From contig NZ_CP134696.1 of assembly GCF_031851795.1 (NCBI RefSeq), positions 2,217,001 to 2,281,000 on the forward strand: DNA of 64,000 nt. The letters run 5' to 3'. Each line of letters begins with the position of its first letter. Within the stretch, counting starts at the first letter, position 1. The notes under the pieces are model-generated. The model was not told the origin of the DNA. It did not search any database and saw only the letters and a list, made by a program, of their open reading frames with translations. The translations under genes and the position numbers were made by a program. Shown here in pieces: positions 29,377 through 52,796 of this stretch. This DNA comes from Pontibacter sp. G13. Lineage in GTDB: Bacteria > Bacteroidota > Bacteroidia > J057.

Positions 29377-29388
29377 CTTTGGTAACTA

Positions 29389-29416
29389 AGCCCACTCTTC
29401 CGAGTGGGCTTTTTTT
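29389..29416 (+). terminator. tRNA terminator
   Basis: AGCCCACTC pairs perfectly with GAGTGGGCT over a 4-nt loop and is followed by TTTTTT, 13 bp after the tRNA. Confidence 0.95.
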
Positions 29417-30229: not shown

Positions 30230-31900
30230 ATGACGTATTCCATTTTTTACAAAAAGGTTCATGTATACGTGAGCCTATGTTTCCTGATGGGTTTCCTGTC
30301 GGTAGCAAACACCTCTTACCTTCATGCCCAATGCTCGGCGATCAATTTTCCAGGCGGACGCATTGCCATGAGTTTTGACGGGAACGACAACGACGCTGAC
30401 GACATCGTAGCCATGCCTATGTGTTGCGCCATTCTTCAAGCGGCAGGATTGACCGGTCAGGTCGTCCATCTCGAGTATAGCAATCATATCGCTTCCAATG
30501 ATGCAGGCCAGGCAGCCGATATGGAAACAAGCATTACGGGCTGTATCAATCGATTTGGGATTCCGAGTGGGATCGTGTATAACGGATTCAACTCGACCAA
30601 TGCAGCTCGAAACAACCTTGCTGATGAAATTTCCGCCTCGACCGCCAACGACCCTTTATGGATCATTGCCGCAGGTCCGATGGAAACAATTTGGCGGGCA
30701 TTCGACCGGGCAGTTTCGCAAAATGGCACCAGCGCGCTCCAACATGTAACGGTCATTTCTCATTCTCCCTGGAATGAAAATTACACCTCTGGAAGCTCTA
30801 TGCCTCATGATTGGAGCGATCTCAAAAGCGATTTCGGCAATGCAACATTCGTAGAATCCAACAGGAATTGTCAAGGAAATGACGATGTGTGTACGAATGC
30901 CGATATCAATGACAATGGCACTCTCTGCAACCAGAATTGTAGTGCTGGGGAGAATGACTTCAATACGGCCATCAGCAAATGGAATTGGCTGACCAGCTTG
31001 GGTGCGGACTATACCTGGCTCTTCAACCAAAATCCCTTTGGCAACAAGTTTGATCCCTCCGATGCAGGCATGGTCTACTACTTAGTCACAGGTGGGCCAG
31101 ACAATGGCGGTTGCAAGGACTGCGGATGGCCTGAAGTGAAGGACCTATTCGAAAACCCCTGTACGAGTGGTGGAGGGAGTACTTATTTCTTTCTGGAGAA
31201 TAAAGCCCATACGAAATACCTCCAATGTATGGATGGTGCCGACGGAACAGGATCGGGCAACAACACTCGTGGCATCAACACCAACAAGACAGGCACCTGG
31301 ACCCAATGGACGTTGGTAGATGTTGGAGGAGGGGAATTCCGCATTGAAAACAATGAGTTTGGCCTATGGCTACAGTGCACCAATCAAACCGATGCAACGG
31401 ACGGGCAACCCAATGCCACCAACGATAGTCCGACTTGGGCGGTCAGAGCGGTAGGGACCAACAACACCGGTAATCAAACCAAATGGCGGAAAGTCGATGC
31501 CGGAAATGGCTACTTCCGATTGGAAAATGTACAGTTCGGACGGTGGTTGCAAATGACCGATCTCGTCGACACAGACAATTCCAGTGGGGCAGATCCCGTA
31601 CAGGTCCGCGCCGTCCCGAACACCAAAACAGGTGACTGGACTCGATGGAGAGAAGTCAGCGCATCGGCGAGAATGGCGGCCCCAAGCTTACAGGACCTTA
31701 GCCTTTATCCCAATCCAGCTACGAGTTCCATCCTAATTGACGGCCTGCCTCAATCCCAGACGGTAGAGATTTTCAACATGGTAGGAGCATTGGTCCTTCG
31801 CGCGGAGACTCAAGACAAGGTCGACGTGCGTGCATTGGCACCCGGTGTCTACTTCCTGAAAACGGAAGGCTTCAAGCCTACTCGATTCCTCAAAAAATAA
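30230..31900 (+). CDS. Secreted nucleoside-hydrolase-like protein with beta-trefoil and T9SS tail
   Basis: A 556-residue secreted protein. The signal peptide ends near residue 35 (SYLHAQ). Residues ~38-310 form an alpha/beta domain beginning GRIAMSFDGNDNDADDIVAM, which recalls the Asp-rich calcium site of nucleoside hydrolases (D-x-D-x-x-x-DD). It continues with WIIAAGPMETIWRAF, HVTVISHSPWNENY and SLGADYTWLFNQNPF. Similar uncharacterised proteins occur in polysaccharide-degrading marine bacteria. Residues ~318-482 are a three-fold repeat (FLENKAHTKYLQC, FGLWLQCTNQTD, FGRWLQMTDLVD), a ricin-like beta-trefoil. Residues ~490-556 are a type A T9SS domain (LSLYPNPATSS...GVYFLKTE). It is the first gene of a likely three-gene operon. 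Substrate unknown; a glycoside-active role is inferred from context. Confidence 0.7.
   Translation: MTYSIFYKKVHVYVSLCFLMGFLSVANTSYLHAQCSAINFPGGRIAMSFDGNDNDADDIVAMPMCCAILQAAGLTGQVVHLEYSNHIASNDAGQAADMETSITGCINRFGIPSGIVYNGFNSTNAARNNLADEISASTANDPLWIIAAGPMETIWRAFDRAVSQNGTSALQHVTVISHSPWNENYTSGSSMPHDWSDLKSDFGNATFVESNRNCQGNDDVCTNADINDNGTLCNQNCSAGENDFNTAISKWNWLTSLGADYTWLFNQNPFGNKFDPSDAGMVYYLVTGGPDNGGCKDCGWPEVKDLFENPCTSGGGSTYFFLENKAHTKYLQCMDGADGTGSGNNTRGINTNKTGTWTQWTLVDVGGGEFRIENNEFGLWLQCTNQTDATDGQPNATNDSPTWAVRAVGTNNTGNQTKWRKVDAGNGYFRLENVQFGRWLQMTDLVDTDNSSGADPVQVRAVPNTKTGDWTRWREVSASARMAAPSLQDLSLYPNPATSSILIDGLPQSQTVEIFNMVGALVLRAETQDKVDVRALAPGVYFLKTEGFKPTRFLKK
31180..31665 (+). repeat. Shared beta-trefoil module, copy 1 of 3
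   Basis: Encodes the ~160-residue trefoil that recurs, almost unchanged in protein and strongly similar in DNA, at 33585-34065 and 35799-36275 inside genes whose catalytic domains are unrelated. Confidence 0.85.
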
Positions 31901-31927
31901 TGCATCCAACCTTCAGATGACAGACCA

Positions 31928-31958
31928 CAAGGGGTGAAAAATTCACCCGTTAGGTCTC
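31928..31958 (+). other. Hairpin inside the operon spacer
   Basis: GGGTGAA pairs with TTCACCC around an AA-rich loop, and the flanking ACC / GGT may extend it. No T tract follows, so it looks more like an mRNA processing or stability element than a terminator. Confidence 0.35.
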
Positions 31959-32004
31959 CTTGCTTCACTCGCGATTTACTGTTTTAACCTTAACTCACTA
32001 TGCA

Positions 32005-34302
32005 ATGAAAAAGCGACTAACATCTCCTTGGTATTGGTTTTTCAAACATCTTATGGTCATAGGATTCATGGCCGTATTCACTCAAGCTCAAGCCCAAATT
32101 TGGACCTACAGCTATCCCAATAACATTGTTAACGCCAATGAGTCTCTGGTAAAAAAATCGGACATCTATGACGTCAAGGTGGTTCAGGGAAACACCACCC
32201 AGACTTGTTATGTGATGTACGATCGCAACCAGCAGACCAATACTGGCAACAACAACGTCAAGCTCAATCCCGATAACCATTGGACCAATTTTTCCAAGTC
32301 GGGAGCTGTAACGATTGAGATCACTCGGATCGATGGAGGAAATCTCAATTCAGCTACGGTGTACCCACTGAAAAAGGGTTACAACGCGACGGTAAACAAC
32401 AACAAAGCGACCATCAGCATTCCGGCAAACGTCGACAAACTCCAGATTTGGGTGGAAATCAATGGCTTGACGGACGAGCCCCTATTCATCTTTGTAGATC
32501 CGGTAGAGACAGATGTTCCCAATATCAATGGATCTAACGTCACAGTCATCAATACCACCGATGGCATCAATACGGTCATCAGCAAATTAAATGATAACAA
32601 CACCTACGCCTATTTTGAACCGGGAATCCATAAATGGGGAAGTCAAACTGGGGCCAATTACAGCGGCTACCAGATGCCCATCAAATCTGGCAAAAGGATC
32701 TACCTCCCAGGCGGTGCCTACGTGATCGGCTCTTTCAATGCCAACAGCGGTGCCAATGGATGGAAAGTCTACGGTCGGGGCGTGATTTCAGGGGCAGGGC
32801 TAGACATTCTTCCTACCGCTACCTACATCCCTTGGTCCGCCGTTCATGCAGGTTCCTTTACAGGCGCTCGCGCAACCATCGAGGGAATCGTCTCCATGTG
32901 TCCTCCACATTTTGCGTTGACAGTCCGTGGGCCGGTAGACATCGACAACGCCAAGATGATCAGCTGGTGGCAATCTACAGACGGAACCATCACAGGCGAC
33001 AATTCCACTGTCGACAACTGCTTCTTCAAAGTCATGGATGACGCCATCAAAGTGTATGGCAACAATTGCACCCATGACAATAACACCATCTTTCACCAAG
33101 TCAATGGCGCAGTCCTCCAATTCTCTTGGGGAGGCCAGCATGGGGACAATAATTTGGTCACCAATACCTATGTCATCAACAGTGTCTATAAGGGATTGGG
33201 AGCAACCAGCAACACGGCCGTTATCAACGTAGTCAAACACAACAACGGAGAGACGACCGAGAACAACACCATCAGAAATGTCTACATAGACAACGGTTGT
33301 CACAGACTTTTGGGCATGGATTCTCCTACAGGCACCTACCGAAATTTCACGATCGAGCATGTAGAGTTAAACCAAGGAAGTAATGCGCAACCACAAGCTG
33401 CCAATAGCTACCTAAGTGGAAATGCCAGCTTCTCCAACTTCGACATCATCGATCTGCAAATCAACGGAAGCCCAATCACGGGAACCAATGCCAACAGCGA
33501 CCAACCCAATAATGGGAACTGGTGGTTTTCGGGACAATCGGGGGCACTTGACATCAGCACCGGCACAAGCGGAGGCGGTGGAGCACTCGTCCATTTGGAA
33601 AATAAGGCCCATTCCAAATTCCTACAATGTACGGACGGCACCGATGGCACAGGATCGGGGAACAATGTACGCGGGATTGACAATAGCAAAACCGGAACTT
33701 GGACCCAATGGACCTTGGTGGACGCAGGAGGCGGAAACTATCGAATCGAAAATAGCGAGTTTGGCCTATGGCTACAGTGTACCAATCAAACCGATGCTAC
33801 AGATGGGCAACCCAATGCCACCAACGATAGTCCGACATGGGCCATCAGAGCGGTTGGGACCAATAATGACGGCAATCAAACCAAATGGAGAAAAGTAGAT
33901 GCCGGAAATGGGTATTTCCGACTGGAAAACGTCCAATTCGGACGGTGGCTACAGATGACGGATTTGGTGGATGTTGACAATACCAACGGTGCCGGGCCGG
34001 TGCAAGTACGTGCCGTCCCGAACACCAAAACGGGAGACTGGACTCGCTGGAGAGAGGTAGCGGTATCGGCAAGAAAGGCAGCTCCAACCCTAAAGGTATT
34101 GAGCGTTTATCCCAATCCTACTCAAAACCACCTGATTGTCGAAGGTCTGTCAGACATGCAGCTCATGGAAGTGATCGACCTCAAGGGGGCTACCGTTCTT
34201 CTTTCTGAAGCGAAAAGCAAGCTCGACGTGAGTACCCTAGCGCCCGGAATCTACCTCCTGAGGGTAGAAGGGTTTCTCCCCATACGATTCACCAAGCAAT
34301 AA
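32005..34302 (+). CDS. Secreted parallel beta-helix glycosidase-like protein with beta-trefoil and T9SS tail
   Basis: A 765-residue secreted protein. It has a signal peptide (1-31, ending TQAQAQ), an N-terminal beta-sandwich (~32-175), and then a right-handed beta-helix (~190-510). The helix shows short coils ending in Asn/Asp ladders: GKRIYLPGGAYVIGSFN, YGRGVISGAGLDIL, VDNCFFKVMDDAIKVYGNNC, NTIFHQVNGAVLQFSWGGQH. A beta-sandwich plus beta-helix with a paired-Asp D-D-A-I-K motif is the layout of GH49, and resembles GH28 and GH82 (iota-carrageenase); I cannot decide the family. Residues ~528-690 are the shared trefoil and ~699-765 the T9SS domain (LSVYPNPTQN). It lies 104 bp after the previous gene and is probably in the same operon. 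Confidence 0.72.
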   Translation: MKKRLTSPWYWFFKHLMVIGFMAVFTQAQAQIWTYSYPNNIVNANESLVKKSDIYDVKVVQGNTTQTCYVMYDRNQQTNTGNNNVKLNPDNHWTNFSKSGAVTIEITRIDGGNLNSATVYPLKKGYNATVNNNKATISIPANVDKLQIWVEINGLTDEPLFIFVDPVETDVPNINGSNVTVINTTDGINTVISKLNDNNTYAYFEPGIHKWGSQTGANYSGYQMPIKSGKRIYLPGGAYVIGSFNANSGANGWKVYGRGVISGAGLDILPTATYIPWSAVHAGSFTGARATIEGIVSMCPPHFALTVRGPVDIDNAKMISWWQSTDGTITGDNSTVDNCFFKVMDDAIKVYGNNCTHDNNTIFHQVNGAVLQFSWGGQHGDNNLVTNTYVINSVYKGLGATSNTAVINVVKHNNGETTENNTIRNVYIDNGCHRLLGMDSPTGTYRNFTIEHVELNQGSNAQPQAANSYLSGNASFSNFDIIDLQINGSPITGTNANSDQPNNGNWWFSGQSGALDISTGTSGGGGALVHLENKAHSKFLQCTDGTDGTGSGNNVRGIDNSKTGTWTQWTLVDAGGGNYRIENSEFGLWLQCTNQTDATDGQPNATNDSPTWAIRAVGTNNDGNQTKWRKVDAGNGYFRLENVQFGRWLQMTDLVDVDNTNGAGPVQVRAVPNTKTGDWTRWREVAVSARKAAPTLKVLSVYPNPTQNHLIVEGLSDMQLMEVIDLKGATVLLSEAKSKLDVSTLAPGIYLLRVEGFLPIRFTKQ
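33585..34065 (+). repeat. Shared beta-trefoil module, copy 2 of 3
   Basis: Second copy of the trefoil module; long stretches are identical in DNA to copy 1, for example the segment coding for FGLWLQCTNQTDATDGQPNA. Confidence 0.85.
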
Positions 34303-34383
34303 TTTCCAGCTCATTTTAGCTAATAGGCAAACACGAGAAGTTCAACGCAATTTCTGGTGTTTGCCCACTCAAACGCTCTCACA

Positions 34384-36513
34384 ATGAAATCATCCCTCTT
34401 CGTAAAATCGATACAGGTTCTCGCGTTGACCTTTGCTTTGAGCCTCCCTTCCATGGGGCAAGCTCAGCAGAAGAACGTCCTATTCATCATGGCCGATGAC
34501 TTTAACCATTGGCTCAACCGACTCGGGTACTACCCAGACGCACAGACGCCCAACCTGGACAATCTCGCCAGCAAAGGGGTGTTGTTTGCAGATGCGCACT
34601 GTTCTTCTCCGGTCTGCAATCCTTCCAGAAACGCCATTTGGTCGGGATTGAGACCTTCTACCACTGGCATCACTGCGAATGGTGATGGGTATGTGAGAGA
34701 CAAAGCTGGCTTTGAAAACGTAGTAACCATGAATCAGTATTTCAAGCAGCAAGGTTACTATGTGTATGGGGGCGGCAAACTTTATCACCCCGGCAGTATG
34801 GGCAACAATGAGACCGACCCCAATAACTGGAGTGATCTCTACAATGGTCCATCAGGAAGTCCCGGTGGTTCTCTCTACAGTTGGTCTTCTCCCAGTGGGG
34901 ATGGACTGTGGAAATGGAGTGCTGGTACATTCAACATCGCCGACGCCAACGATACCAAGTTGGCGCAACATATGGCCGATCAAATTTCCACCTACAATCG
35001 AAGTGAACCATTCTTCATTGCTGCGGGGCTGTTTCGTCCCCATCTACCTTGGAATACCCACAAGGACTTTTTTGACATGTTTGACCCCAATACGCTGCCT
35101 GTTCCTGATGGCTATCTGGTGAATGACGGGAATGATATCAACTACAACGGCAACACCCGATATCATGATGCAGTAGCGGATGGAGTCTACAAAGATGCGA
35201 TTCGGGCCTACCTAGCCAACATGGCCTATGCGGACTACAACGTCGGAATCATATTGGATGCGCTAGACAATAGTCCTGCATCGATCAAGAACAACACCAT
35301 TGTGGTATTCATGGGAGACCACGGTTGGCATCTTGGGGAAAAAGATCGAATGGGAAAGAGCGCAGACTTTGAGATTGCCCACCATACCACTTTGATCATC
35401 TATGATCCAGCTGCCAACGGTAACGGGGGAATCAGTCAAAAGGTCGTAAGCCTCCAAGACGTTTATCCGACCTTGATCGACCTTTGCGGTTTGCCCGCCC
35501 GGGGTGATGTGGAAGGAAACAGTCTCCAACCTTTGTTGCAGAATCCCAACAGTGGGAGTTGGAACAAACCTATCCTGATGACTTATCGAAACAATGATAT
35601 CATCAAAACAGATCAATGGCGCTTGATTGATAATGGAGCCAGCAGTCAATTGTATGACATGGTCAATGATCCCTACGAATGGACCAACCTCTATGGCCAG
35701 TCCCAATACAACAGCATCGTAACCGATCTAAGAGCCAAAATTGACAGCATCAAGCTCATTGGAACGAATCTCGTCATCGGGAGCAATCCGAGCGGCTTCG
35801 TGCACTTAGAGAATAAAGCCCACACCAAATTCCTGCAATGCACCGATGGGGCCGATGGAACAGGATCTGGCAATAATGTCCGGGGTATCGACAACAATAA
35901 AACCGGTACTTGGACTCAGTGGAGTTTAGTGGATGCAGGTGGAGGAAATTTCCGGGTGGAGAATAATGAATTTGGACTCTGGCTACAGTGCACCAATCAG
36001 ACTGACCCTACTGACGGTCAGCCCAATTCCGCTACCGACAGCCCAACTTGGTCAGTCAGGGCTGTAGGAACCAATAACAACGGCAATCAAACCAAATGGA
36101 AGAAAGTAGATGCTGGCAATGGGTATTTCCGTCTGGAAAACGTGCAGTTCGGAAGGTGGCTACAGATGACCGATCTCATCGATGTAGATAATGCCAATGG
36201 TGCCGGACCGGTGCAGGTACGTGCCGTACCAAACACCAAGACAGGGGATTGGACTCGGTGGAGAGAGGTAACCGTTTCAGCCAGAAAAGCGGCCCCAGCA
36301 CTGCAAGACTTGAAAGTTTACCCCAATCCGACACAGGATCATCTCATCATTCAAGGACTTCCTAAAATCCAGTCTATCGAAGTCCTCGATCTGAAAGGGG
36401 CGGTAGTCCTGACTGTTGAAGCCAAAAGCAAAATAGATGTGAGTCCTCTTTCGGCTGGTGTATACATTCTGAGGACAGAGGGCTTCGAATCTGTGAGATT
36501 CACCAAGCAATAG
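34384..36513 (+). CDS. Secreted type I (formylglycine) sulfatase with beta-trefoil and T9SS tail
   Basis: A 709-residue sulfatase. The signal peptide is at 1-28 (SLPSMGQAQ). The calcium-binding aspartates are in VLFIMADDFNHW (Asp38, Asp39). The active-site motif C-x-P-S-R is present as CNPSR in SSPVCNPSRNAIWSGLRPST; Cys78 would be converted to formylglycine by a maturase not seen here. Metal-site partners lie in VVFMGDHGWHLGEKDRMGKS. The iduronate-2-sulfatase-like pattern (HCSSPVCNPSR, AAGLFRPHLPWNTHKDFFDM) suggests subfamily S1_7 or a close one; this is from memory. Residues ~472-636 are the shared trefoil and ~643-709 the T9SS domain (LKVYPNPTQD). It ends the operon before a strong terminator. 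A sulfatase points to a sulfated polysaccharide such as porphyran or carrageenan. Confidence 0.88.
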   Translation: MKSSLFVKSIQVLALTFALSLPSMGQAQQKNVLFIMADDFNHWLNRLGYYPDAQTPNLDNLASKGVLFADAHCSSPVCNPSRNAIWSGLRPSTTGITANGDGYVRDKAGFENVVTMNQYFKQQGYYVYGGGKLYHPGSMGNNETDPNNWSDLYNGPSGSPGGSLYSWSSPSGDGLWKWSAGTFNIADANDTKLAQHMADQISTYNRSEPFFIAAGLFRPHLPWNTHKDFFDMFDPNTLPVPDGYLVNDGNDINYNGNTRYHDAVADGVYKDAIRAYLANMAYADYNVGIILDALDNSPASIKNNTIVVFMGDHGWHLGEKDRMGKSADFEIAHHTTLIIYDPAANGNGGISQKVVSLQDVYPTLIDLCGLPARGDVEGNSLQPLLQNPNSGSWNKPILMTYRNNDIIKTDQWRLIDNGASSQLYDMVNDPYEWTNLYGQSQYNSIVTDLRAKIDSIKLIGTNLVIGSNPSGFVHLENKAHTKFLQCTDGADGTGSGNNVRGIDNNKTGTWTQWSLVDAGGGNFRVENNEFGLWLQCTNQTDPTDGQPNSATDSPTWSVRAVGTNNNGNQTKWKKVDAGNGYFRLENVQFGRWLQMTDLIDVDNANGAGPVQVRAVPNTKTGDWTRWREVTVSARKAAPALQDLKVYPNPTQDHLIIQGLPKIQSIEVLDLKGAVVLTVEAKSKIDVSPLSAGVYILRTEGFESVRFTKQ
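35799..36275 (+). repeat. Shared beta-trefoil module, copy 3 of 3
   Basis: Third copy of the trefoil; protein almost identical to copies 1 and 2 with small changes (NQTDPTDGQPNSATDSPTWS). Confidence 0.85.
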
Positions 36514-36542: not shown

Positions 36543-36577
36543 CCCCAGACATTCTCTCGTGTCTGGGGCTTTTTTCT
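36543..36577 (+). terminator. Terminator of the three-enzyme operon
   Basis: CCCCAGAC pairs perfectly with GTCTGGGG over a 10-nt loop, followed by CTTTTTTC, 30 bp after the sulfatase stop. Confidence 0.92.
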
Positions 36578-36789: not shown

Positions 36790-39700
36790 ATGACTCGGCT
36801 GTATCTCTGTATATGCCTTTGGCTGTTCTCCCAAGGACTCCATGCACAATGGAATGAACTCAGTGTGAAACAGGCCACAACCATGGAGGGCCTCTCCCAC
36901 AATAGCGTCCAATGCGTGTTTGAGGATAGTCGCGGTTTCATCTGGCTGGGAACTACAGATGGGCTGAATCGCTACGATGGGCACTCCTTCAAAACCTACC
37001 AGATCCGCTCCGACATCCCGGGCGCCCTCCAAAGCAATAGCATCTACCACATCTCGGAGGACGAAAACCAAATCCTCTGGATCAGTTCCCGCACCCATGA
37101 AGTTTGCTTCTTTGACTTAAAGAAAGACCGGTTCGTTCCTGCCGACGAGCTTCCAGTCCAATACCGGCTTCCAGCGGGATTTGTCTATTGGGAAGTGGTG
37201 CATGTGGGAAAGGAGGAACACTGGATTTGTGGGAAAGGCGATATCCTCATCTCCACCCCTACGGGAGTCAAATCCCTCAAGCAGGAAGGCCTTTTGCCTT
37301 TGGAAATGGAAATCGATATCCCCAAAATGGTGTCGAAAACTGCCGATTCTGTTTGGGTAGTGGTCCGATCTGGGCAGATATTCTGCATGAGTAGAGATGA
37401 TAGCGACCCTACAGGAATCCGGATTGATTTCCTCAAAAACAACATCAAGGTCAATGACCTCATTCTCTACAAAAATGGCATGCTACTCGGTACCAATGAG
37501 GGCATTTTGGCGAAATTTCCTTGGCATGAGCGACCAGTGAAGATCAATCTAGTTCCAGCCATCACGATCTACGCACAAGACGAAACGCTTTGGGTAGGAA
37601 CCCGCGAGGGAATTTGGGGCTACCAATTGGATTCTCTACTGGCTCCCTTCGAGGATCGGACAGCGGGCCAATTGCCCACTCCACATCCTCTGGAAGCATT
37701 CGGCAGGAAGGTCCCACACCTATCGAGCCATGTCTACAATATCACGGAAGATCGAAACGGGATCATCTGGATCGGAACCAAAGGAGATGGGCTCCTCCAA
37801 TTCAACCCGCGCGCGGATAAGTTTCGATTCTATTCCCTCGGCGGGGAACAGCGGATCAGGCGTAGGGTCCGGGCTATTCTTGAAGACCATCAAGGCCGGA
37901 TTTGGATCGGAAGCGATGGAAAGGGCATGTTTCGGCTCGCAACGGCCCCAGATGGAAATCGCCAACTGAAGGAAGTGCATCCAACCGTCAACCCCAATCA
38001 GTTCATTCATCGGCTGTACGAGTTGGATCTATTGGGAACGCCCCACCTGTTTCAAGGCACACACTTTCCTTCCAGGCCCAAAATCCTCGATATTTCCGGC
38101 GATCAGCCCAAGGAGGCAAACGCTTTCGAGAAACTCCTCCTGAAAAGGGGGTCGATCACGGATATCATCCAAGATTCGCAATGGATCTGGATTTCGACTT
38201 TCAATCAGGGGGTATTCCGCTACAACCTTGAGACAGATGAAATCACTGAAATCAAGATTTCCGAGGACACGGGGGAATGGCCCGCACACAAGCCGAGGAG
38301 TTTCCTTCTGGACCGCTCTGGAAGGCTATGGCTCGGGACCAGTAAGGGATTGTTTATGATTCCTGCGAATGAAAAGACCCGGCCTGTTCCGAGGATGCTG
38401 ACCTTCAACCATGATCCCAAAGATTCTACAAGTCTCAGTCATGACTATGTGTTGCCGCTCCTCCAATCCTCCTCTGGCGAAATCTGGATCGGCACAATGG
38501 GAGGCGGACTCAATCGATGGGTGGAAAAAAAGCAACGATTCGAACACTGGACTACCGCAGATGGCCTTTCCAGCAATACCCTCAAAGGCATTTTGGAGGA
38601 CGATGACGGCAATCTATGGATCTCATCGAATCGAGGTATTTCCCAATTCGATCCTTCCACCGAGCGATTTATCAATTACGATCCATCCGATGGGCTTCAA
38701 GACTATGAATTCACCGACTTGTCCTGCTACAAGACCCAAGCTGGGGAAATGCTCTTTGGGGGAGTCCGTGGCATGAATGCATTTTTCCCGGGGCAAATCC
38801 ATCAAGATGCCTCCGTATCGCCGGTGATATTTACGGATCTGCAAGTCATGAATGAGCAGATTTCCCCGCAGCAGAAACTCAATGGACGTGTCCTGATTGA
38901 CACCTATCTCCATGATGCCGCCGAATTGAATCTGCGGTATGACGAGCACACCTTTACCATCTCATTTGTCGGACTCAATTACCGCTCGCCCAAGAAGATC
39001 CAGTACCAGTATCGTCTAGCGGGATTTGAGGAAACGTGGGTACACACCGATGCCTCCGCTCGATTTGCCAAATACACCAAGGTTCCCCCGGGTACCTACC
39101 GATTCGAGGTCCGCGCCTCCAATACCGACGGCGTATGGAATGGTCCTACACGATCATTGATCATCACGATTCGTCCTCCATTTTGGCAAAGCAATGCAGC
39201 TATTGCGGGATATCTCGTCCTCGGATTGCTACTAATCTTCTTTTTCAGACGCTACTCGCTCATTCGCATCCAGCGAAAGAATGAGTGGATTATGCAGGCT
39301 TTCGAACAGGAAAAGGTGCAGGAATTGGCCCAGATGAAGCTGCAATTCTTCACCAATGTCTCCCACGAATTCCGCACACCGCTCACATTGATCCAAGGCT
39401 ATCTCGACAAGGTGATTTCCACCGTCAATCGAGAGGTTCGGCAAGATCTCCAGATCGTACAGCGGAACACGCGCATTTTGCTCAAACTCGCTTCCGAGCT
39501 GATGGACCTCCAAAAGATGGAGCAGGAGTATGAACACGACGTTCATTCGCTTGAAGACTTGACCATTCTGGCACGAGAAAGCTTCGATTCCTTCCGATGG
39601 TGGGCAGCGCAAAAGGATGTCCAGCTTGATTTTCAAGGCCCTGGCATCCCGCAAATGGTCTGGATGGATACGCATGGCATCGAGCGGGTGTGTTACAACC

Positions 39701-40935
39701 TACTGTCCAATGCGCTCAAGCATACCTCACCGGGAGGGAGTATCAAGATCAAGATCGTCGAATTTCAAAAGGAGGTCTGCTTGTCTGTTCAAGACACTGG
39801 CCAAGGGATCCCGAAGGAAGATCAGGCCTATGTGTTCAAGCGATTTTACCAAGCCACCAAATTCCGGGAGATTCACCGCATGGGAACGGGTATTGGGCTC
39901 GCGTACTCCAAGGCGATTGTGGAGCGACATCAGGGCAAACTATATTTTGAAAGTGAGGAGGGTGTGGGTACGACCTTCTTTTTGAGATTGCCCAAGGGTT
40001 CGTCTTATTTGTCAGAATCGCAAAAAGATCAGGAAGGTCAGGCCGAAACCTCCACGCACGCCAAGGTCGATGCTGCCTTGCTCAGCAAGCTCCGACAGCG
40101 CCCTGAGGTCATCGAGCCTTCTGAATTGTCCCCAAAAGCGCCATGTGTCTTGCTGGTAGAGGATAATCACTCGATCCGTTCGATGCTCAAGGAAATTCTG
40201 TCCACTCGATATCGGATCGTTGAAGCGGGAGAGGGGGAACAAGCACTGGAAATGTGCATCGCCCATCAACCGGATCTGGTGGTCAGTGATGTCATGATGC
40301 CCGGCATGGACGGACTGGCCTTTTGCGAGGCCCTTAAGCAACATGAGGAAATCAGCCATATTCCGGTGATTCTCCTGACTGCGAAGGATGGTGCAGAAAT
40401 GAAGCAAAAAGGCTATGAACATGGTGCGGATGCCTATGTGACCAAGCCGTTTGAAATGTCGGTCTTGCAAGCGCAAATTCAGTCGATCATCGAATCCCGA
40501 CAAAAGCTGATCGACAGGATCAAGACCTCTGGATATGAGATCAATCTCAAGGACGTCGAATTGACCAAGTCAGACAGTCAGTTCATGGAGCAGGTCTTGA
40601 GCGTGATGGAGCAGCATGTAGAGCAGATGGATTTTTCGGTGATACAATTTGCCCAGAGCCTCAATATGTCGCGAGCCACCTTCAACCGCAAACTGAAGGC
40701 TATGACCGGACATACCGCGTTGAGATTTATGCGAGATTATCGGATCAAACGAGCAGCCAGCTTGCTGTCCCAAAGCGACCTCTCCATCAAGGAGGTTTTC
40801 TTCCAATCGGGCATTGCCAACATGAAATCCTTCCGCCAATACTTCCGAGAAGAATATGGCCAGTCCCCTCGGGAGTACCGGAAAAATGCCCTGACTAAAA
40901 CATATGGATCAAGGGATGGCACAAATGGTATATAA
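36790..40935 (+). CDS. Hybrid two-component system regulator (HTCS) of the locus
   Basis: A 1381-residue one-protein signalling system. In order: signal peptide (1-20); two seven-bladed beta-propeller halves of ligand-binding repeats (~25-700; for example FIWLGTTDGLNRYDGHSFKT, IIWIGTKGDGLLQFNP, GNLWISSNRGISQFDP); Y_Y_Y domain (~715-790); membrane span (AAIAGYLVLGLLLIFFF, ~800-818); HisKA with NVSHEFRTPLTLIQG (phospho-acceptor His859); HATPase (NLLSNALKHT, DTGQGIPKEDQ, GTGIGLAYSKAI); receiver domain (VLLVEDNHSIRSM, phospho-acceptor Asp1167 in VVSDVMMPGMDG); and an AraC-type DNA-binding domain (MDFSVIQFAQSLNMSRATFN, then SIKEVFFQSGIANMKSFRQY). HTCS proteins bind periplasmic oligosaccharide and activate their PUL. 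It sits between the two enzyme blocks, and an operator-like repeat overlaps its own 3' end. Confidence 0.95.
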   Translation: MTRLYLCICLWLFSQGLHAQWNELSVKQATTMEGLSHNSVQCVFEDSRGFIWLGTTDGLNRYDGHSFKTYQIRSDIPGALQSNSIYHISEDENQILWISSRTHEVCFFDLKKDRFVPADELPVQYRLPAGFVYWEVVHVGKEEHWICGKGDILISTPTGVKSLKQEGLLPLEMEIDIPKMVSKTADSVWVVVRSGQIFCMSRDDSDPTGIRIDFLKNNIKVNDLILYKNGMLLGTNEGILAKFPWHERPVKINLVPAITIYAQDETLWVGTREGIWGYQLDSLLAPFEDRTAGQLPTPHPLEAFGRKVPHLSSHVYNITEDRNGIIWIGTKGDGLLQFNPRADKFRFYSLGGEQRIRRRVRAILEDHQGRIWIGSDGKGMFRLATAPDGNRQLKEVHPTVNPNQFIHRLYELDLLGTPHLFQGTHFPSRPKILDISGDQPKEANAFEKLLLKRGSITDIIQDSQWIWISTFNQGVFRYNLETDEITEIKISEDTGEWPAHKPRSFLLDRSGRLWLGTSKGLFMIPANEKTRPVPRMLTFNHDPKDSTSLSHDYVLPLLQSSSGEIWIGTMGGGLNRWVEKKQRFEHWTTADGLSSNTLKGILEDDDGNLWISSNRGISQFDPSTERFINYDPSDGLQDYEFTDLSCYKTQAGEMLFGGVRGMNAFFPGQIHQDASVSPVIFTDLQVMNEQISPQQKLNGRVLIDTYLHDAAELNLRYDEHTFTISFVGLNYRSPKKIQYQYRLAGFEETWVHTDASARFAKYTKVPPGTYRFEVRASNTDGVWNGPTRSLIITIRPPFWQSNAAIAGYLVLGLLLIFFFRRYSLIRIQRKNEWIMQAFEQEKVQELAQMKLQFFTNVSHEFRTPLTLIQGYLDKVISTVNREVRQDLQIVQRNTRILLKLASELMDLQKMEQEYEHDVHSLEDLTILARESFDSFRWWAAQKDVQLDFQGPGIPQMVWMDTHGIERVCYNLLSNALKHTSPGGSIKIKIVEFQKEVCLSVQDTGQGIPKEDQAYVFKRFYQATKFREIHRMGTGIGLAYSKAIVERHQGKLYFESEEGVGTTFFLRLPKGSSYLSESQKDQEGQAETSTHAKVDAALLSKLRQRPEVIEPSELSPKAPCVLLVEDNHSIRSMLKEILSTRYRIVEAGEGEQALEMCIAHQPDLVVSDVMMPGMDGLAFCEALKQHEEISHIPVILLTAKDGAEMKQKGYEHGADAYVTKPFEMSVLQAQIQSIIESRQKLIDRIKTSGYEINLKDVELTKSDSQFMEQVLSVMEQHVEQMDFSVIQFAQSLNMSRATFNRKLKAMTGHTALRFMRDYRIKRAASLLSQSDLSIKEVFFQSGIANMKSFRQYFREEYGQSPREYRKNALTKTYGSRDGTNGI
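40900..40927 (+). promoter_or_regulatory. Direct-repeat operator of GH86 gene 1, overlapping the HTCS coding end
   Basis: ACATATG at 40900-40906 and ACAAATG at 40921-40927, 14 bp apart (21-bp period). The pair lies within the last 12 codons of the HTCS gene, 114 bp before GH86 gene 1. It matches the four ACAAATG-N14-ACAAATG sites further along, with one mismatch in the first heptamer. Confidence 0.65.
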
Positions 40936-41041
40936 CCACTCCGACCATTGATAGGGAGCCACAATCCGGACTATCTTCATCCGAAACATGCGCCGCCTTT
41001 TGCAGGCGAATGACCCATTTTCGAATCATTCACCCGAAGAT

Positions 41042-43555
41042 ATGAAGAGACTCCCTCATCTGATGCTCATCCTGATCATGGCCGTTGGAGCCGTGTCATT
41101 GCCAAAGACCACCTCGGCCCAAGGGACGGTTACGATTGCGCCAAAGACCCAGCGTTTCATCGGTGGAGTCTCTCGTCTGGACCGGAGTAAATACATCACC
41201 TTCCACGGGTATTTCGGAGCCAATTCCACCGACCCAGAATTGGTTTCTTTCAGAAACACCTACAATCTCGCCGCTGGATATGACGGAGGCCGAAGAGCCT
41301 GGAGTCCTCTGAACAAGACAGATGACGATCTCGCGGGGACTATCCCCAATGTGCAAGACAAATATGAGGGAATCCGCTCTGTGGATGGAACGGTAGCCAC
41401 CGGACGCGCCGACCTGTTGATGCACAACCCGAACATCGATTATTCCACAACGGACATTACTCAACGAATCGCGGTTGTAACGGACTATGTGGCAAGGAGC
41501 TTCAAGGACGAATGGGATGATTGCCCAACGTTTTACGAGCCATTCAACGAGCCCATGATCAAAGCGCCGGACTTCTATCCGGGAGGATTCAATACCGCCA
41601 AGAATGATATCATCATCACCAGAATCTGCGAATTTCACCGAGAAATGGGCGCAGCCATCCATGCGTATCCGGAACTTCAGAATATTCAGATGATTGGATA
41701 CGCCTCGGCCTATCCTGAATTCGAGAAGGATGACTTCACCCTCTGGCAGAAACGCTACAAGAAATTCATCGACATCGCAGGTCCGGAGATGGATGGTTTT
41801 TCCATTCACCTCTATGACGGCGTGGGAGTCAACAATTCAGGAGGGAGAAGATCAGGCTCCAACATGGAAGCACTCTTGGATATGATCGAGGCCTATAGCT
41901 TCGAAAAACTCGGAGTCGTAAAACCGATTGCCGTGACGGAATTTGGGCGACTCGTGGAAAGTCAGCCCGGGTGGGTAGAAGGCGGAACTGTGGGCAACTA
42001 CGAACCGGTGGAAAACTCGCAGGCCGTTCGCTCTCAAAATCACATGGTCATGAGCTTCATGGAGCGAGCAGGCAATATGTCTGTGGCCATCCCCTTTTCA
42101 GTTGGAAAAACCAATCCTTTCAATGACAAATTCTCCCGTGCGTCACTCTGGGTGGAGCAGCCTGATGGTTCTTACCTACTGACCCAGCGGAGATTCTACT
42201 ACGAGATCTGGAAGGATGTAGCAGGCGACCGAGTCGAAGTTCAATCTAGCAATATCGACGTCCAGACGCAGGCATTTGTGAGTGGAGAAAAGCTCTACCT
42301 CGTGCTGAACAATCTCAACGATTCCACCCAAACCGTCAATCTGAATCTCCTGACCTCATCTGGCCTCCAAGAAGTGCATACCAAGCGCCTCAAAATTTTC
42401 GTGGACCAGATCCCGCAATTGACCGAATCCACAGACTCGATTGCTCCCAGCAACCTGACCATCAACTATGGAGAGACCGTGGTATTGACCTACACCTACG
42501 ATAGCCCGATCGAATTTGACCGAAGCATTCAAGGTCAGAAATACTACGCCAATTTGACCCTGAAACCCATTTCCGCCAATACCAATGTGGCTTTTACCAT
42601 CGAGGATGTGGAAACAGATACGGCGGGATACGCATTTCTTCGTGTGGGAGTAGGCCGGGCACATGGGTTGAGCCTGAATCCGACGGTTACCATCAATGGC
42701 CAATCGGTCTCATACACAGGAGACATCATCAAAGGGTATGATCAAAACACCCGAACCGCCTTTTTCGGGATCTTGGAGATTCCAGTGGATCTCGGCGTCC
42801 TTCAAACAGGTGCCAATGCGGTCAACATTCAGTTCCCAGATGGTGGAGGTCATATCAGCTCTGTAAGTTTGCAGGTGCGAACTTATGGCGAGCCCGTGAT
42901 TCCGGAGCCGGGTCCCATTGTCACTTTCCAAAACTTGGGGAGCTTCAGATACATGAGCGCCGGAAATTCCAGCCAGATGAATACGGTTGATACTGCCGGA
43001 GTCACCGAGGAATTTGAACTGGTGGATTTCGATGGTGGAATGCTCCTTGATGGGCAAGTTGCTCTAAAAGGAAATAATGGCCTTTATGTCAGTTCAGAGG
43101 ATGGAGCCCAAGAACTCACCTGCGAAAGCACCACCATTGGCCAATTGGAACTATTCGAGTTGGTAGATCAAGGAGATGGTTCCTATGCAATCAAAGGAAG
43201 CAATGGCCTATATCTCCGAGAAAATATGCTGTGTAATTCTGCCAATGTCAGTACATGGCAAAAGTGGACCATCACGGGTCTGCCCACTCCGACCAGTCTT
43301 GACGAGCGTCCGACCCCATTCAAGCTATTCCCCAATCCATGGAATCACGGAACGGCCACGATGGAATGGCACACCGCCCAGGGCCCCTACTCCCTGCGCA
43401 TCTTGGACCTTCAAGGCAAGGAGGTGTTCCGCGCTTCCGACATCGTGGGTTCTATCCAGATTCCCCAGAGTGCCGTCAAAAACCAAGGGGTATACATCGT
43501 CACTGTCTCGGATGGCAAGCATACGCATCACTCCAAGTGGGTCGTAAAAAGATAG
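41042..43555 (+). CDS. GH86-type beta-agarase/porphyranase 1: catalytic domain, one trefoil, T9SS tail
   Basis: An 837-residue secreted hydrolase of clan GH-A. The signal peptide ends in TTSAQG. The catalytic TIM-barrel (~30-400) has the acid/base Glu170 in FYEPFNEPMIKA and the nucleophile Glu300 in IAVTEFGRLVES, and the family-like FSIHLYDGVGVNNSGGRRSG followed by SNMEALLDMIEAYSF. Accessory beta-sandwiches follow (~410-620), then one fascin-like beta-trefoil (~626-750; repeats FRYMSAG, GLYVSSEDG, GLYLRENM) and a T9SS domain (~759-837, FKLFPNPW). I assign GH86 from motif similarity to known agarases and porphyranases. It probably endo-cleaves agar or porphyran outside the cell. It groups with gene 2 (Cys in DDCPT, LLMHNPNIDYS). 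Start: ATG at 41042. Confidence 0.82.
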   Translation: MKRLPHLMLILIMAVGAVSLPKTTSAQGTVTIAPKTQRFIGGVSRLDRSKYITFHGYFGANSTDPELVSFRNTYNLAAGYDGGRRAWSPLNKTDDDLAGTIPNVQDKYEGIRSVDGTVATGRADLLMHNPNIDYSTTDITQRIAVVTDYVARSFKDEWDDCPTFYEPFNEPMIKAPDFYPGGFNTAKNDIIITRICEFHREMGAAIHAYPELQNIQMIGYASAYPEFEKDDFTLWQKRYKKFIDIAGPEMDGFSIHLYDGVGVNNSGGRRSGSNMEALLDMIEAYSFEKLGVVKPIAVTEFGRLVESQPGWVEGGTVGNYEPVENSQAVRSQNHMVMSFMERAGNMSVAIPFSVGKTNPFNDKFSRASLWVEQPDGSYLLTQRRFYYEIWKDVAGDRVEVQSSNIDVQTQAFVSGEKLYLVLNNLNDSTQTVNLNLLTSSGLQEVHTKRLKIFVDQIPQLTESTDSIAPSNLTINYGETVVLTYTYDSPIEFDRSIQGQKYYANLTLKPISANTNVAFTIEDVETDTAGYAFLRVGVGRAHGLSLNPTVTINGQSVSYTGDIIKGYDQNTRTAFFGILEIPVDLGVLQTGANAVNIQFPDGGGHISSVSLQVRTYGEPVIPEPGPIVTFQNLGSFRYMSAGNSSQMNTVDTAGVTEEFELVDFDGGMLLDGQVALKGNNGLYVSSEDGAQELTCESTTIGQLELFELVDQGDGSYAIKGSNGLYLRENMLCNSANVSTWQKWTITGLPTPTSLDERPTPFKLFPNPWNHGTATMEWHTAQGPYSLRILDLQGKEVFRASDIVGSIQIPQSAVKNQGVYIVTVSDGKHTHHSKWVVKR

Positions 43556-43587
43556 CGTCAAATTTCCTCATCATATCAGACATGTGT

Positions 43588-43617
43588 GAAGGGCTGCTCT
43601 TTTGGGCAGCCCTTTTG
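43588..43617 (+). terminator. Terminator of GH86 gene 1
   Basis: GGGCTGC pairs with GCAGCCC over an 8-nt loop, followed by TTTTGG, 35 bp after the stop. Confidence 0.8.
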
Positions 43618-43779
43618 GTTTCTAGATCCTTGTCGGAAGAAACAGTGGAATGAAAGCCTGCAACATGGGGAATATTCACATTCCATTGAGCCGACATTTG
43701 GGCAAATGAGGCTGAGAAAATGGCCCCATTACTTCATCTGAAAAAAAATTTATCCCCACCACTCATTTTAGTCATTGAC

Positions 43780-43807
43780 ACAAATGTATGGCGCAATACC
43801 ACAAATG
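43780..43807 (+). promoter_or_regulatory. Direct-repeat operator of GH86 gene 2
   Basis: ACAAATG at 43780-43786 and 43801-43807, perfect heptamers with N14 between. TTGA begins 33 nt after the start of the second heptamer, a possible -33 element. The start codon is 313 bp downstream, so the leader is long. The 43618-44120 stretch otherwise has no gene. Confidence 0.75.
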
Positions 43808-44120
43808 TTGCAGACGTGTATTAGGGCCTGATATTGAGCAAAATATACCCTTACAATGAGCCAAAACGCCTTTTTCTTCGGCCATTTCCCCCGCAATTTA
43901 GTTCAAGCTCAGCCCCGAAAACATGCGGTCGCCTCTCGTTTGAAAGCCTTTTCTTCGCTTGATTTTTCACCGATTTCCTGCTGGAATGGCGAAATCCGGT
44001 TCGATCTCTTCAACCCGTTTTCCCCCGCTATCCCCATCGGTCATGGTCCGGTTGAGAATGAGGAATTCACAAGGCTGATGCGACCGATTTGAGTTCTATT
44101 ACGCTACATTTTCGTTTATC

Positions 44121-47003
44121 ATGACAAGGATTACCTCTTTGTTTACTTGGCTCCTACTCTGCGTAGGAATCGCATTCGCCCCAAGTAACGCACAAGCCCA
44201 AGGGACCATCACGATCGACCACAAGACCCAGCGGTTCATCGATGGCATCTCCCAACTGGATCGCAGCAAGTACATTACCTTCCACGGCTATTTTGGCAAA
44301 GGGTCCACCGATGCGGATTTGGCAAGCTTCCGGAATACCTACAATCTCGCATCCGACTATGTGGGTGGCCGTAGAGCTTGGAGTCCCCTGAACAAGGTCG
44401 ATGACGATCTGGCCGGAACCATTCCCAACGTGCAGGAGAAATACAACGGCATTCGCACCGTGGACGGAACGGTCGCGACAGGGCGTGCGGATCTCCTGAT
44501 GCACAATCCCAATATTGACTATTCCACCACGGACATCACACAGCGTATCGCGGATGTCACCGCTTACATTGCACAGAGCTATAAGGACGAATGGGACGAT
44601 TGTCCGACCTATTATGAGCCGTTCAATGAACCGATGATCAAGGCTTCAGACTTTTACCCCCAAGCCTCCAACACGGCACAGAACGATATCATCATCACGA
44701 AGATCTGTGAATTTCACCGTGAGATGGGCGCTGCCCTCAAGGTGTATCCAGAGCTCCAGAATATCCAGATGATTGGCTATGCATCGGCTTTCCCCGAATT
44801 TGAGAAAAACGACTTCACCCTTTGGCAGAAGCGCTACAAGAAATTCATCGACATTGCAGGTGCTGAAATGGACGGATTTTCCATTCACTTGTATGATGGA
44901 GTCGGTGTCAATAACTCCGGCGGTCGTCGATCTGGTTCCAACATGGAGGCCCTGCTGGACATGATCGAGGCATACAGCTTCGAAAAGCTCGGGGTGGTGA
45001 AGCCTATCGCGGTAACAGAATTTGGCCGTTTGGTAGAAAGTCAGCCCGGTTGGGTGGCTGGCGGAAGCGTCTCCAACTATGAGCCTGTAGAAAACTCACA
45101 AGCTGTCCGCTCCCAGAACCACATGGTCATGAGCTTCATGGATCGCGCCGAAAATCTGTTGGTGGCCATTCCCTTCTCCGTCGGAAAGACCAATCCCTTT
45201 GACGACAAATTCTCCCGCGCCTCTTTGTGGGTGGAACAGGCCGATGGTTCCTATTTGCTCACCCAGCGTCGATTCTTCTATGAAATCTGGAAGGATGTCC
45301 AAGGAGAACGCGTATACATCAATTCCTCCAACATCGACGTCCAGTCTCAGGCATTTGTAGATGGCAACAAGCTCTATGTCGTCCTCAACAACTTGAATGA
45401 CGCCACCCAGACGGTGAACATGAACCTCTTGGATCAGGCGGGCTTGCAGAGTGTCCAGACCAAGCGTCTCAAGATTTTCACCAACCAAGTTCCGCAACTG
45501 ACTACTTCCAGCTCTTCCTCCGCTCCATCGAGTGTCAGTGTGGCCTATGGCGAAACTGTAGTATTGACCTATACATTTGGTTCGAATGTCAATTTCACCA
45601 ATGACATCACGAGCAAGAAATTCTACGCGACCAGCACCCTGAAGCCTATCACGGCCAATACCGATGTCACCTTTACCATCAATGGAGTGAACAAGGGCTC
45701 TGGATCTGGAGAAGGCAAGTTGAGAATCGGCGTAGGTCGTGCCCTCACCCTCAATCGTCAGCCCATCGTGAAGATCAATGGTCAGACTGTCAGCTACAGC
45801 GGTGACATCATCAAAGGATATGACCAAAGTACCCGAGAGCAATTCTTTGGGATCTTGGAAATCCCTGTAGACCTCAGTTTGGTGAATGCAGGTACCAATA
45901 CCGTCAAGGTTCAATTCCCGGATGGAGGGGGACACGTGAGTTCCGTGATTCTTCAAGTGTCAGCCTACACCACACCCGTCAATCCAAGCCCGGGAGGGGG
46001 ATCGACCGCGACCTTCCGAAATCTCGGCAGCAACAAGTACATGAGTGCTGCGACCCCTACCTTGATGAACACGGTCACCACGGCCGGCGCTACGGAGGAA
46101 TTTGAAATCATCGACTTGGATGGAGGCGCTTTGGCCAATGGTCTGGTAGCCCTCAAGGGAAGCAACGGACTGTATGTCAGTTCTGAAAACGGCACCAAAG
46201 AAATGACCTGTACCCGCCCCAATGTCGGTGCTTGGGAGGAATTCACCTTGGAAGAAATCAGCAGTGGCGTATATGCGCTGAAAGCCAACAATGCACAATA
46301 CCTGCGGGAAAACATGCTCTGTACGAGCACTAGCGCAGGAACATGGCAACAATGGACTGTGGACCTGAGCACCATTGCATCCTTCCAGAATCTCGGAAGC
46401 GGCAACTACATGAGCTCGGCCAATGCCAATCAGATGTCCACTGTCGGGAGCGTGGGGGCTACCGAGAAATTCGAAATCATCGATGCAGGAAGTGGACTGG
46501 TCGCGCTGAAAGGCAGCAATGGCAATTACGTCAGCTCCGAAAATGGCACGCAGGAAATGACCTGTAACACCGCTACCATTGGCGCTTGGGAAAAATTCAC
46601 CTTGGAAGATCAGGGGGATGGCTCATTTGCACTCTTGGCAAACAACAACCAGTATCTTCGCGAAAACATGCTCTGCACATCGCCTAGTGTGAGCAATTGG
46701 CAGAAGTGGACCGTGACGACTGGATTGAGTGCGCGCCGTGGAATTGAGGCTGTGGAGGAACCATTCGAAGTGTATCCCAACCCGATGACTGGAACTGCGG
46801 TGATGGTCAATTGGGAACAAGCTGCTGCTCCCTACACCATCCAAATCATGGACTTGCGAGGAGCTGTGGTATTCCGGACTACCGATGTGGAGGGCAGATT
46901 CAAAGTATCCCGCGAGGCACTTGGGGAGAATGGCATCTATATCGTATCGGTCAATGATGGGACCACCACGCAATTCTCCAAACTTGTGGTAAGCGGGAAA
47001 TAG
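44121..47003 (+). CDS. GH86-type beta-agarase/porphyranase 2: catalytic domain, two trefoils, T9SS tail
   Basis: A 960-residue secreted hydrolase. The signal peptide (1-28) ends in NAQAQG. The catalytic domain parallels gene 1 residue by residue, with acid/base Glu170 (YYEPFNEPMIKA) and nucleophile Glu300 (IAVTEFGRLVES). After the beta-sandwich region there are two tandem fascin-like trefoils (~630-750 and ~752-875), each with a final QYLRENMLCTS strand, then the T9SS domain (~881-960, FEVYPNPMTG). Two binding modules could increase affinity for insoluble polysaccharide. The trefoils resemble those of gene 3 closely, while the catalytic part is nearer gene 1, suggesting module exchange between neighbours. 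It is its own transcription unit with operator and terminator. Confidence 0.82.
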   Translation: MTRITSLFTWLLLCVGIAFAPSNAQAQGTITIDHKTQRFIDGISQLDRSKYITFHGYFGKGSTDADLASFRNTYNLASDYVGGRRAWSPLNKVDDDLAGTIPNVQEKYNGIRTVDGTVATGRADLLMHNPNIDYSTTDITQRIADVTAYIAQSYKDEWDDCPTYYEPFNEPMIKASDFYPQASNTAQNDIIITKICEFHREMGAALKVYPELQNIQMIGYASAFPEFEKNDFTLWQKRYKKFIDIAGAEMDGFSIHLYDGVGVNNSGGRRSGSNMEALLDMIEAYSFEKLGVVKPIAVTEFGRLVESQPGWVAGGSVSNYEPVENSQAVRSQNHMVMSFMDRAENLLVAIPFSVGKTNPFDDKFSRASLWVEQADGSYLLTQRRFFYEIWKDVQGERVYINSSNIDVQSQAFVDGNKLYVVLNNLNDATQTVNMNLLDQAGLQSVQTKRLKIFTNQVPQLTTSSSSSAPSSVSVAYGETVVLTYTFGSNVNFTNDITSKKFYATSTLKPITANTDVTFTINGVNKGSGSGEGKLRIGVGRALTLNRQPIVKINGQTVSYSGDIIKGYDQSTREQFFGILEIPVDLSLVNAGTNTVKVQFPDGGGHVSSVILQVSAYTTPVNPSPGGGSTATFRNLGSNKYMSAATPTLMNTVTTAGATEEFEIIDLDGGALANGLVALKGSNGLYVSSENGTKEMTCTRPNVGAWEEFTLEEISSGVYALKANNAQYLRENMLCTSTSAGTWQQWTVDLSTIASFQNLGSGNYMSSANANQMSTVGSVGATEKFEIIDAGSGLVALKGSNGNYVSSENGTQEMTCNTATIGAWEKFTLEDQGDGSFALLANNNQYLRENMLCTSPSVSNWQKWTVTTGLSARRGIEAVEEPFEVYPNPMTGTAVMVNWEQAAAPYTIQIMDLRGAVVFRTTDVEGRFKVSREALGENGIYIVSVNDGTTTQFSKLVVSGK

Positions 47004-47070
47004 GCATTCAACCGTTTAGTAGCATTTGAAAAATTCGAGTCAAAGGGACTGAGTTCCCTAATTTTCCGAC

Positions 47071-47107
47071 GAGGGTTGCTTCCTGTAAGCAGCCCTCTTT
47101 GTTTTTG
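47071..47107 (+). terminator. Terminator of GH86 gene 2
   Basis: GAGGG-TTGCT pairs with AGCAG-CCCTC (one G-T wobble) over a 7-nt loop, followed by TTTGTTTTT. Confidence 0.85.
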
Positions 47108-47296
47108 GCTGAATCCTTGGGGGTTCCCAAAATCTCCATTCGGGGGTTCATGTGAGCGGGGGAATTCCAATCACTTCCATCACTCCCAAATCTGGGCTTT
47201 CCTCCTTGTGATTTTTTCTATTGGTGGAATAGACAGCATTCGGTCATTCCAACACCTTTCCTTCCAGTCCCAACATTCCCCCAAACGGGTGTTAAA

Positions 47297-47324
47297 ACAA
47301 ATGGGTAGGCAGTTGCTACAAATG
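47297..47324 (+). promoter_or_regulatory. Direct-repeat operator of GH86 gene 3
   Basis: ACAAATG at 47297-47303 and 47318-47324, N14 between, 327 bp before the start codon. ATGA lies 33 nt after the start of the second heptamer. The leader shares GAGCCAAAA and, 37-38 nt later, AATTTAG with gene 2. No gene lies in 47108-47651. Confidence 0.75.
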
Positions 47325-47651
47325 ATCCGGAATATTGAGGCTATGGAATCATGAGCTAAAAGTGCCCCTTCTTTGAGCCAAAATGACTTTCTCGGCACCC
47401 CAATCCCCTTCAATTTAGGTCCACCAACCTGGAAACACTGCTCCATTTCGAAACTGTTTTCCACATCTGAGCAGTCCCTTTATCTCGCTTTTTTCGACAG
47501 GGCGATTGTCTAAGGTAACCACATGATGTCAGTTGGATGAAGGATGTGCACCCCCTTCCCCATTTGGCGCTCCCCTACTTTTTGCTGCTGTCATTCATAA
47601 GGGACTTCTCTAGATGTGTGTGTTCCTCACTACTACAATTATATATCTCAC

Positions 47652-50534: not shown

Positions 50535-50561
50535 GAACTGATATTAGGATAAGAATTTTCA

Positions 50562-50596
50562 CGGGGCTGCCTTCACGGGTAGCCCTGATTTTTTGA
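50562..50596 (+). terminator. Terminator of GH86 gene 3
   Basis: GGGCTGC pairs with GTAGCCC (one G-T wobble) over a short loop, followed by TGATTTTTTG. Confidence 0.75.
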
Positions 50597-50641
50597 TCGA
50601 CGCTCGCCAAAGCTATTCCTCGAAATGCGAGCTGCCTTAAA

Positions 50642-52752: not shown

Positions 52753-52796
52753 CAAATGAATGCCGCCTGTGAACCGACAGGCTATCCAAGCGTGCC

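Follow-up and report, generated by a model that had tools for sequence, protein, structure and literature searches.

The glucan degradation locus (GDL) of Caldicellulosiruptor encodes neighbouring multimodular enzymes with repeated modules, both family 3 carbohydrate-binding modules (CBM3) and catalytic domains, and, according to the accessible sections of its description, contains repeated nucleotide sequences and is proposed to have expanded by recombination after duplication (PMC7142884). Here we describe three consecutive genes, A, B and C, in a 64,000-nucleotide stretch of Pontibacter sp. G13 DNA (positions 2,217,001 to 2,281,000 of contig NZ_CP134696.1; hereafter the window). Their products, a protein with a predicted nucleoside-hydrolase fold, a beta-helix protein resembling glycoside hydrolase family 49 (GH49) and an S1 sulfatase, all end in the same predicted beta-trefoil and a sorting tail of the type IX secretion system (T9SS). 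By analogy, the GDL is a partial precedent for this trio. It differs in that, as far as those sections go, it concerns cellulose, its repeats extend to the catalytic domains, and a single CBM family is used throughout (PMC7142884). Unlike the GDL, the genome studied here has several operons with a cassette of their own each, and the cassette is carried also by a sulfatase and a nucleoside-hydrolase-fold protein. The GDL, moreover, is not known to involve a T9SS. T9SS enzymes with several modules have been described, and the accessible parts of these reports do not mention shared cassettes (PMC5831590, PMC13235733). Among the titles, abstracts and passages that a literature search covered, with subscription journals mostly outside it, no paper describing operon-specific shared cassettes among T9SS enzymes was found. 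Three features seem new: within a single genome, several operons carry a cassette of their own; paralogous trios differ in cassette as sets; and sulfatases and a nucleoside-hydrolase-fold protein carry a shared cassette.

We consider it rather probable that the C-terminal cassette of the trio, consisting of a linker, the beta-trefoil and the T9SS tail, is an operon-specific unit that acts as a common targeting tag on three unrelated secreted proteins and is kept by purifying selection. The three copies of the trefoil, each of about 158 residues, are 85-89% identical in protein and 76-80% identical in DNA, and the catalytic parts upstream of them have no BLAST match to one another, confirming a preliminary description that had placed the same trefoil behind three unrelated enzymes. 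That description did not mention the T9SS tail, which is part of the shared unit: the C-terminal sorting domain scored above cut-off in all three proteins with both PF18962 and TIGR04183. All three genes lie on the + strand. Gene A (30230..31900, 556 residues) has its trefoil at 31184..31654 and its linker and sorting tail at 31655..31900. The corresponding positions are 33586..34059 and 34060..34302 in gene B (32005..34302, 765 residues; reading frame open from TTG 31960), and 35797..36270 and 36271..36513 in gene C (34384..36513, 709 residues; reading frame open from GTG 34357). A repeat search of positions 26000-42000 returned one three-copy family of 300 nucleotides, whose outer copies are 79% and 76% identical to the middle one, and DNA similarity falls to background just 5' of the trefoil and just 3' of the stop codon.

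The preliminary description had further held that the module was spread recently by duplication or gene conversion. Shared descent was borne out; recent spread was not. Synonymous divergence (dS, NG86) of the trefoils is 1.84 for A-B and 3.19 for B-C and is not estimable for A-C, so that synonymous change has reached or nearly reached saturation in every pair; non-synonymous divergence (dN) is 0.068, 0.054 and 0.089, respectively. Where an identical residue can be encoded by more than one codon, the two copies of a pair agree in codon at 67 of 128 positions in A-B (z 3.6), 54 of 125 in A-C (z 1.3) and 61 of 131 in B-C (z 2.1), or 43-52% as opposed to the 37-38% expected from codon usage. With dS at or near saturation and codon sharing barely above expectation, the DNA identity of the trefoils is nearly what protein conservation alone gives, and this comparison, set beforehand as the one that could tell against a recent spread, did so. 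By comparison, a recently copied pair elsewhere in the genome (locus L043) has a dS of 0.04 and shares 325 of 355 codons over the whole aligned stretch. Judged by these substitution patterns, the spread of the trefoil is shown to be old, and its copies to have been maintained under strong purifying selection. Continuing gene conversion (concerted evolution) could instead keep the trefoils alike, and both the codon sharing, which exceeds expectation in A-B and slightly in B-C, and the L043 pair, which shows that near-identical cassette copying occurs in this genome, would agree with it. We nevertheless regard it as quite unlikely, because conversion would homogenise synonymous sites too, whereas dS is at or near saturation in every pair, and no 20-codon block in A-B stands out against that pair's own mean (P 0.14; P 0.05 for B-C).

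The T9SS tails share codons at levels similar to the trefoil (19/38, 18/40 and 21/53), but their proteins are only 47-67% identical, with a dN of 0.23-0.44. Similar synonymous saturation in trefoil and tail, combined with very different protein divergence, is what a single ancient copying of both parts would leave behind if the trefoil was tightly constrained thereafter; the two parts probably moved together. The same contrast bears on the proposal that this common C-terminal segment serves only as a spacer or in export, having arrived with the T9SS tail as an export cassette, and binds no sugar. Such a unit would be expected to show the reverse, a tail better conserved than the domain before it. 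CBM6 (PF03422) also scores far over its cut-off in paralogous cassettes, described below, and in a sulfatase of Spirochaetales the trefoil precedes other domains and not a tail of this kind, as far as the reading shows. The proposal does account for a copied unit that contains the tail and ends at the stop codon, for the free variation between loci of the domain before the tail (trefoil, FN3-CBM6 or CBM6x2), and for a block of 159 residues common to a peptidase and a sortilin-like protein at 84% identity. Taken together, we consider it unlikely.

Relatives of the trefoil in other genomes are rare. Of 395 genomes searched in the phylum, the other 394 yielded no close homologue (E <= 1e-15), and of 22 in the order, the remaining 21 had no match at E <= 1e-6; no relative turned up on 72,556 plasmids or among 242 pattern matches in viral contigs. 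A scan of GTDB r220 genomes revealed a single close homologue. This nearest outside trefoil, 56% identical to copy B, lies on the sulfatase of a Spirochaetales metagenome-assembled genome, where other domains follow it and, as far as the reading shows, there is no tail of the T9SS kind. At E <= 0.001, distant matches appeared in three other phylum genomes, in one (L154) on a T9SS protein with no catalytic Pfam match at 0.001 and in two (L155, L156) on two similar proteins. The genome searches found no genome with an orthologous trefoil trio. Synonymous saturation would permit long separate histories, and the three genes could in principle have gained similar trefoils separately from elsewhere. 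Given that close homologues are confined to this genome and the Spirochaetales sulfatase in all the sets searched, and that A, B and C are far more alike mutually than B is to its nearest outsider, such independent acquisition appears very improbable.

Several loci of this one genome bear on whether the cassette is a property of the operon (L018, L021, L042 and L043; coordinates are local to each locus). Locus L018, which lies 1.9 Mb from genes A-C at 352-372 kb of their contig, contains a paralogous trio that matches them in enzyme classes and gene order: a nucleoside-hydrolase-like gene (9703-11931), a beta-helix gene (12128-15190) and a sulfatase gene (15198-17840). Catalytic identity between the two trios is 52%, 28% and 44%, respectively. 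In place of the trefoil, all three L018 proteins have a common FN3-FN3-CBM6 block and tail, with CBM6 far above its cut-off; this cassette is 76% identical between the first two proteins and 57-59% identical between these and the sulfatase. Near the other contig end, the gene at L042 7444-10200 has a catalytic part 70% identical to that of B and yet ends in FN3-FN3-CBM6, indicating that a module was exchanged after B and the L042 gene split. Its cassette is closest to that of the L018 sulfatase (70%, versus 60-61% to the other two L018 proteins), and the gene is followed by two GH16 genes. At L021, two GH39-like proteins and one sulfatase have in common a different trefoil, which is 56-57% identical to the first copy; because the two GH39-like proteins are paralogues, only the sharing between GH39-like protein and sulfatase counts. 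Adjacent GH16 and GH81 genes at L043:6487-12692 have a common CBM6x2 block and tail with 98.3% DNA identity over 1,039 bp. The identity sets in at a Ser-rich linker, where matching bases rise from 13 of 60 to 60 of 60, and breaks off at the stop codon, where they fall from 58 of 60 to 18 of 60. This cassette is a truly recent copy. Because paralogous operons use another cassette, FN3-FN3-CBM6 or a different trefoil, in the same way, these comparisons of sequence show, at several loci of this one genome, that the tag follows the operon rather than the enzyme family, in keeping with the earlier suggestion that each block of genes has its own module, which recurs at these other loci.

The peptidase and the sortilin-like protein mentioned above are an M43-type peptidase (L049:192-2252) and a sortilin/MAM/SprB-repeat protein (L148:192-4202), encoded at opposite contig ends, and their common block is C-terminal. 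Upstream of the second trio, L018:2341-9111 encodes a DUF5060 protein, a Kelch and GH43 protein and a further sulfatase, none of which has a T9SS tail match.

We also asked whether neighbours share cassettes beyond chance. Across the genome, 150 of 316 candidate T9SS tails were scored, and genes were compared without their tails; a pair counted as sharing if it had a common C-terminal block but different N-terminal parts. In the main test set of 146 proteins, chosen by the T9SS tail alone, 3 of 40 pairs within 6 kb shared a block, compared with 86 of 10,545 other pairs (shuffle P 0.0054). At an identity of at least 55%, three of the six sharing pairs were neighbours, a number that none of 5,000 shuffles reached. 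A larger count, from which one of 158 proteins was dropped (body under 120 residues), gave 9 of 57 neighbour pairs versus 103 of 12,189 others, in four clusters; it is biased, because some proteins entered via 20-kb stretches around loci already known to share modules. Sharing of cassettes between neighbours is thus established for this one genome and is not yet general.

The shared domain is predicted to be a three-lobed beta-trefoil similar to the ricin type. Its scores with PF14200, the ricin-type trefoil family, are 29.2 (A), 24.4 (B) and 24.9 bits (C), the curated cut-off being 25.6, and among PDB entries its profile matched ThreeFoil at E 9.2e-9 and a chain of a ricin B lectin at E 4.2e-4. 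Ricin-type trefoils have a QxW at the end of each lobe; the lobes here end in TxW, which in all three copies falls at positions 39, 98 and 152 in zero-based numbering, and every lobe has an aromatic-LQ stretch (Y/F/W-LQ-C/M). Two other identities were considered. A fascin-like one, as in the GH86 enzymes of the window, is not supported: hhalign gave a probability of 29 over 26 columns only, upholding the preliminary statement that the two trefoils are distinct. Nor is membership in CBM92, since WExF occurs in none of the three copies. The available passages on CBM92 and bacterial fascin-like modules describe trivalent beta-trefoils on secreted glycan-active enzymes, with one site per lobe, and a WExF at the end of each lobe where the present trefoils have TxW (PMC11039641). 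They also mention a carrageenan-binding subgroup without WExF, so that the sequences would still be compatible with a distant kinship to CBM92 (PMC11039641).

A number of observations weigh against the view that the cassette is an operon-specific targeting tag. Polysaccharide binding by the trefoil is a prediction that we infer from sequence. Only one of the three copies exceeds the PF14200 cut-off, with B and C just below it, and the classical QxW motif occurs in none of them. The AlphaFold2 model of the trefoil, built from four input sequences, failed (mean pLDDT 34), and the fold assignment therefore rests on the profile matches. At L021, a second sulfatase (8951-10378), encoded between the other genes, has no cassette. 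Three independent clusters underlie the neighbour test, the trefoil trio itself among them, and the test is not significant within 3 kb (1 of 25 pairs, P 0.19). Distant loci share cassettes as well, accounting for 3 of the 12 pairs with at least 55% identity in the larger set. In a second genome of the family (G004), represented by 67 proteins from hand-chosen stretches after one of 68 was dropped, there was a non-significant trend (2 of 33 neighbour pairs versus 38 of 2,178; Fisher P 0.12), and in its sole cluster the domains are of the CshA adhesin type, with no match to an enzyme.

With these points taken into account, the likeliest role of the cassette, as judged from sequence comparison, is that of a common targeting tag. 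The sequences show that, leaving aside the exact recombination route, intragenomic duplication or recombination spread it among the three genes long ago and that purifying selection has preserved it. The T9SS tail, going by its family, would export each enzyme, and the trefoil, whose lobes each contain a comparable aromatic-Leu-Gln stretch, would hold all three enzymes on the same polysaccharide. This target may well be a red-algal galactan, since a GH86 array adjoins the trio and GH16 genes lie beside the GH49-like paralogue at L042. A broader proposal, which we offer tentatively and with some doubt, is that in this lineage the targeting module belongs to the operon as such, and that cassettes reaching from linker to stop codon have repeatedly been copied onto the secreted members of a degradation operon, so that one recombination process could re-address a whole pathway to a new polymer. 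Binding modules are usually examined enzyme by enzyme. If the present reading is true, a shared tag points to the enzymes that cooperate and to the polymer they attack, even for members whose activity has yet to be assigned, the nucleoside-hydrolase-fold protein among them. The two paralogous trios, with the same enzyme classes and different tags, amount to a swap experiment set up by nature, and the 1,039-bp GH16/GH81 copy is a young example of tag movement.

The N-terminal domain of gene A, like those of its relatives, has no Pfam match. Its structure prediction from eight sequences (pTM 0.83) best matched 2yhg (Z 14.1; 3.6 A over 221 residues, 14% sequence identity), followed closely by E. 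coli RihA at Z 13.6, with the first row outside the nucleoside-hydrolase fold family at Z 8.7; Foldseek alone gave weak E-values (best 7.9e-3). On this model, the domain has a nucleoside-hydrolase fold. The canonical motif of nucleoside hydrolases is DxDxxxDD, whereas all eight aligned sequences have DGN...DxDD; nucleosidase activity is therefore not assumed. The 2yhg structure is that of Sde_0182 of Saccharophagus degradans, a multidomain protein that likewise combines a nucleoside-hydrolase fold with carbohydrate-binding domains and that, according to the available sections of the report, is inactive on nucleosides and has these domains before the fold, unlike gene A, in which the trefoil comes after it (PMC8910321). 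Relatives of the gene A domain in five other genomes have different neighbours or architectures. One of another genome (L038:8922-13628) is fused to a GH106 rhamnosidase, a fusion that hints at a role of the nucleoside-hydrolase-like domain in glycan breakdown.

Gene B appears from its profile matches to be a beta-helix related to GH49 dextranase. It matched the GH49 dextranase 6nzs (E 8.5e-17), with TDG and DD (Asp and Asp-Asp) aligned at the same spacing; we take these residues to be the catalytic Asp of GH49. It thus resembles GH49 dextranase and isopullulanase in beta-helix and Asp spacing, and its match to the GH49 N-terminal Pfam profile is just below the cut-off (20.3 versus 21.3 bits). 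The sulfatase of gene C matched PF00884 (E 2.9e-38) and has a CNPSR site. CxPSR is the formylglycine site motif of S1 sulfatases.

Genes A, B and C look like a single operon, as terminator-like hairpins flank the trio (29388..29411 upstream and 36543..36568, 30 bases 3' of gene C, both on the + strand and both consensus matches only) and the consensus scan found none on the + strand between the genes, which are separated by about 100 (A-B) and 80 bases (B-C). The downstream hairpin is strong, with T runs on both strands, and is possibly a bidirectional terminator; it lies between the trio and the gene of a hybrid two-component regulator (36790..40935, +), itself situated between the trio and the GH86 array. 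A scan of the window with a Bacteroidota promoter pattern gave a single match, 5' of the trio at 29240, which is no excess over the chance mean of 1.12. A polysaccharide utilization locus is marked by a SusC/SusD pair and co-regulated enzymes. Besides the regulator and the array, the window contains a pair of SusD and SusC-like (TonB plug) genes that follow the array on the opposite strand (57010-61651), but the trio is closed by a terminator-like hairpin before all of these. The array (40988..55595, +), called from PF18206/PF18040, comprises five GH86-type genes, four with fascin-like modules distinct from the trefoil; in the fifth (50776-52752), the Pfam scan found no match to a fascin-like domain and none to a T9SS tail. 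Since the GH86 genes are paralogues along their whole length, a common fascin-like module is expected among them.

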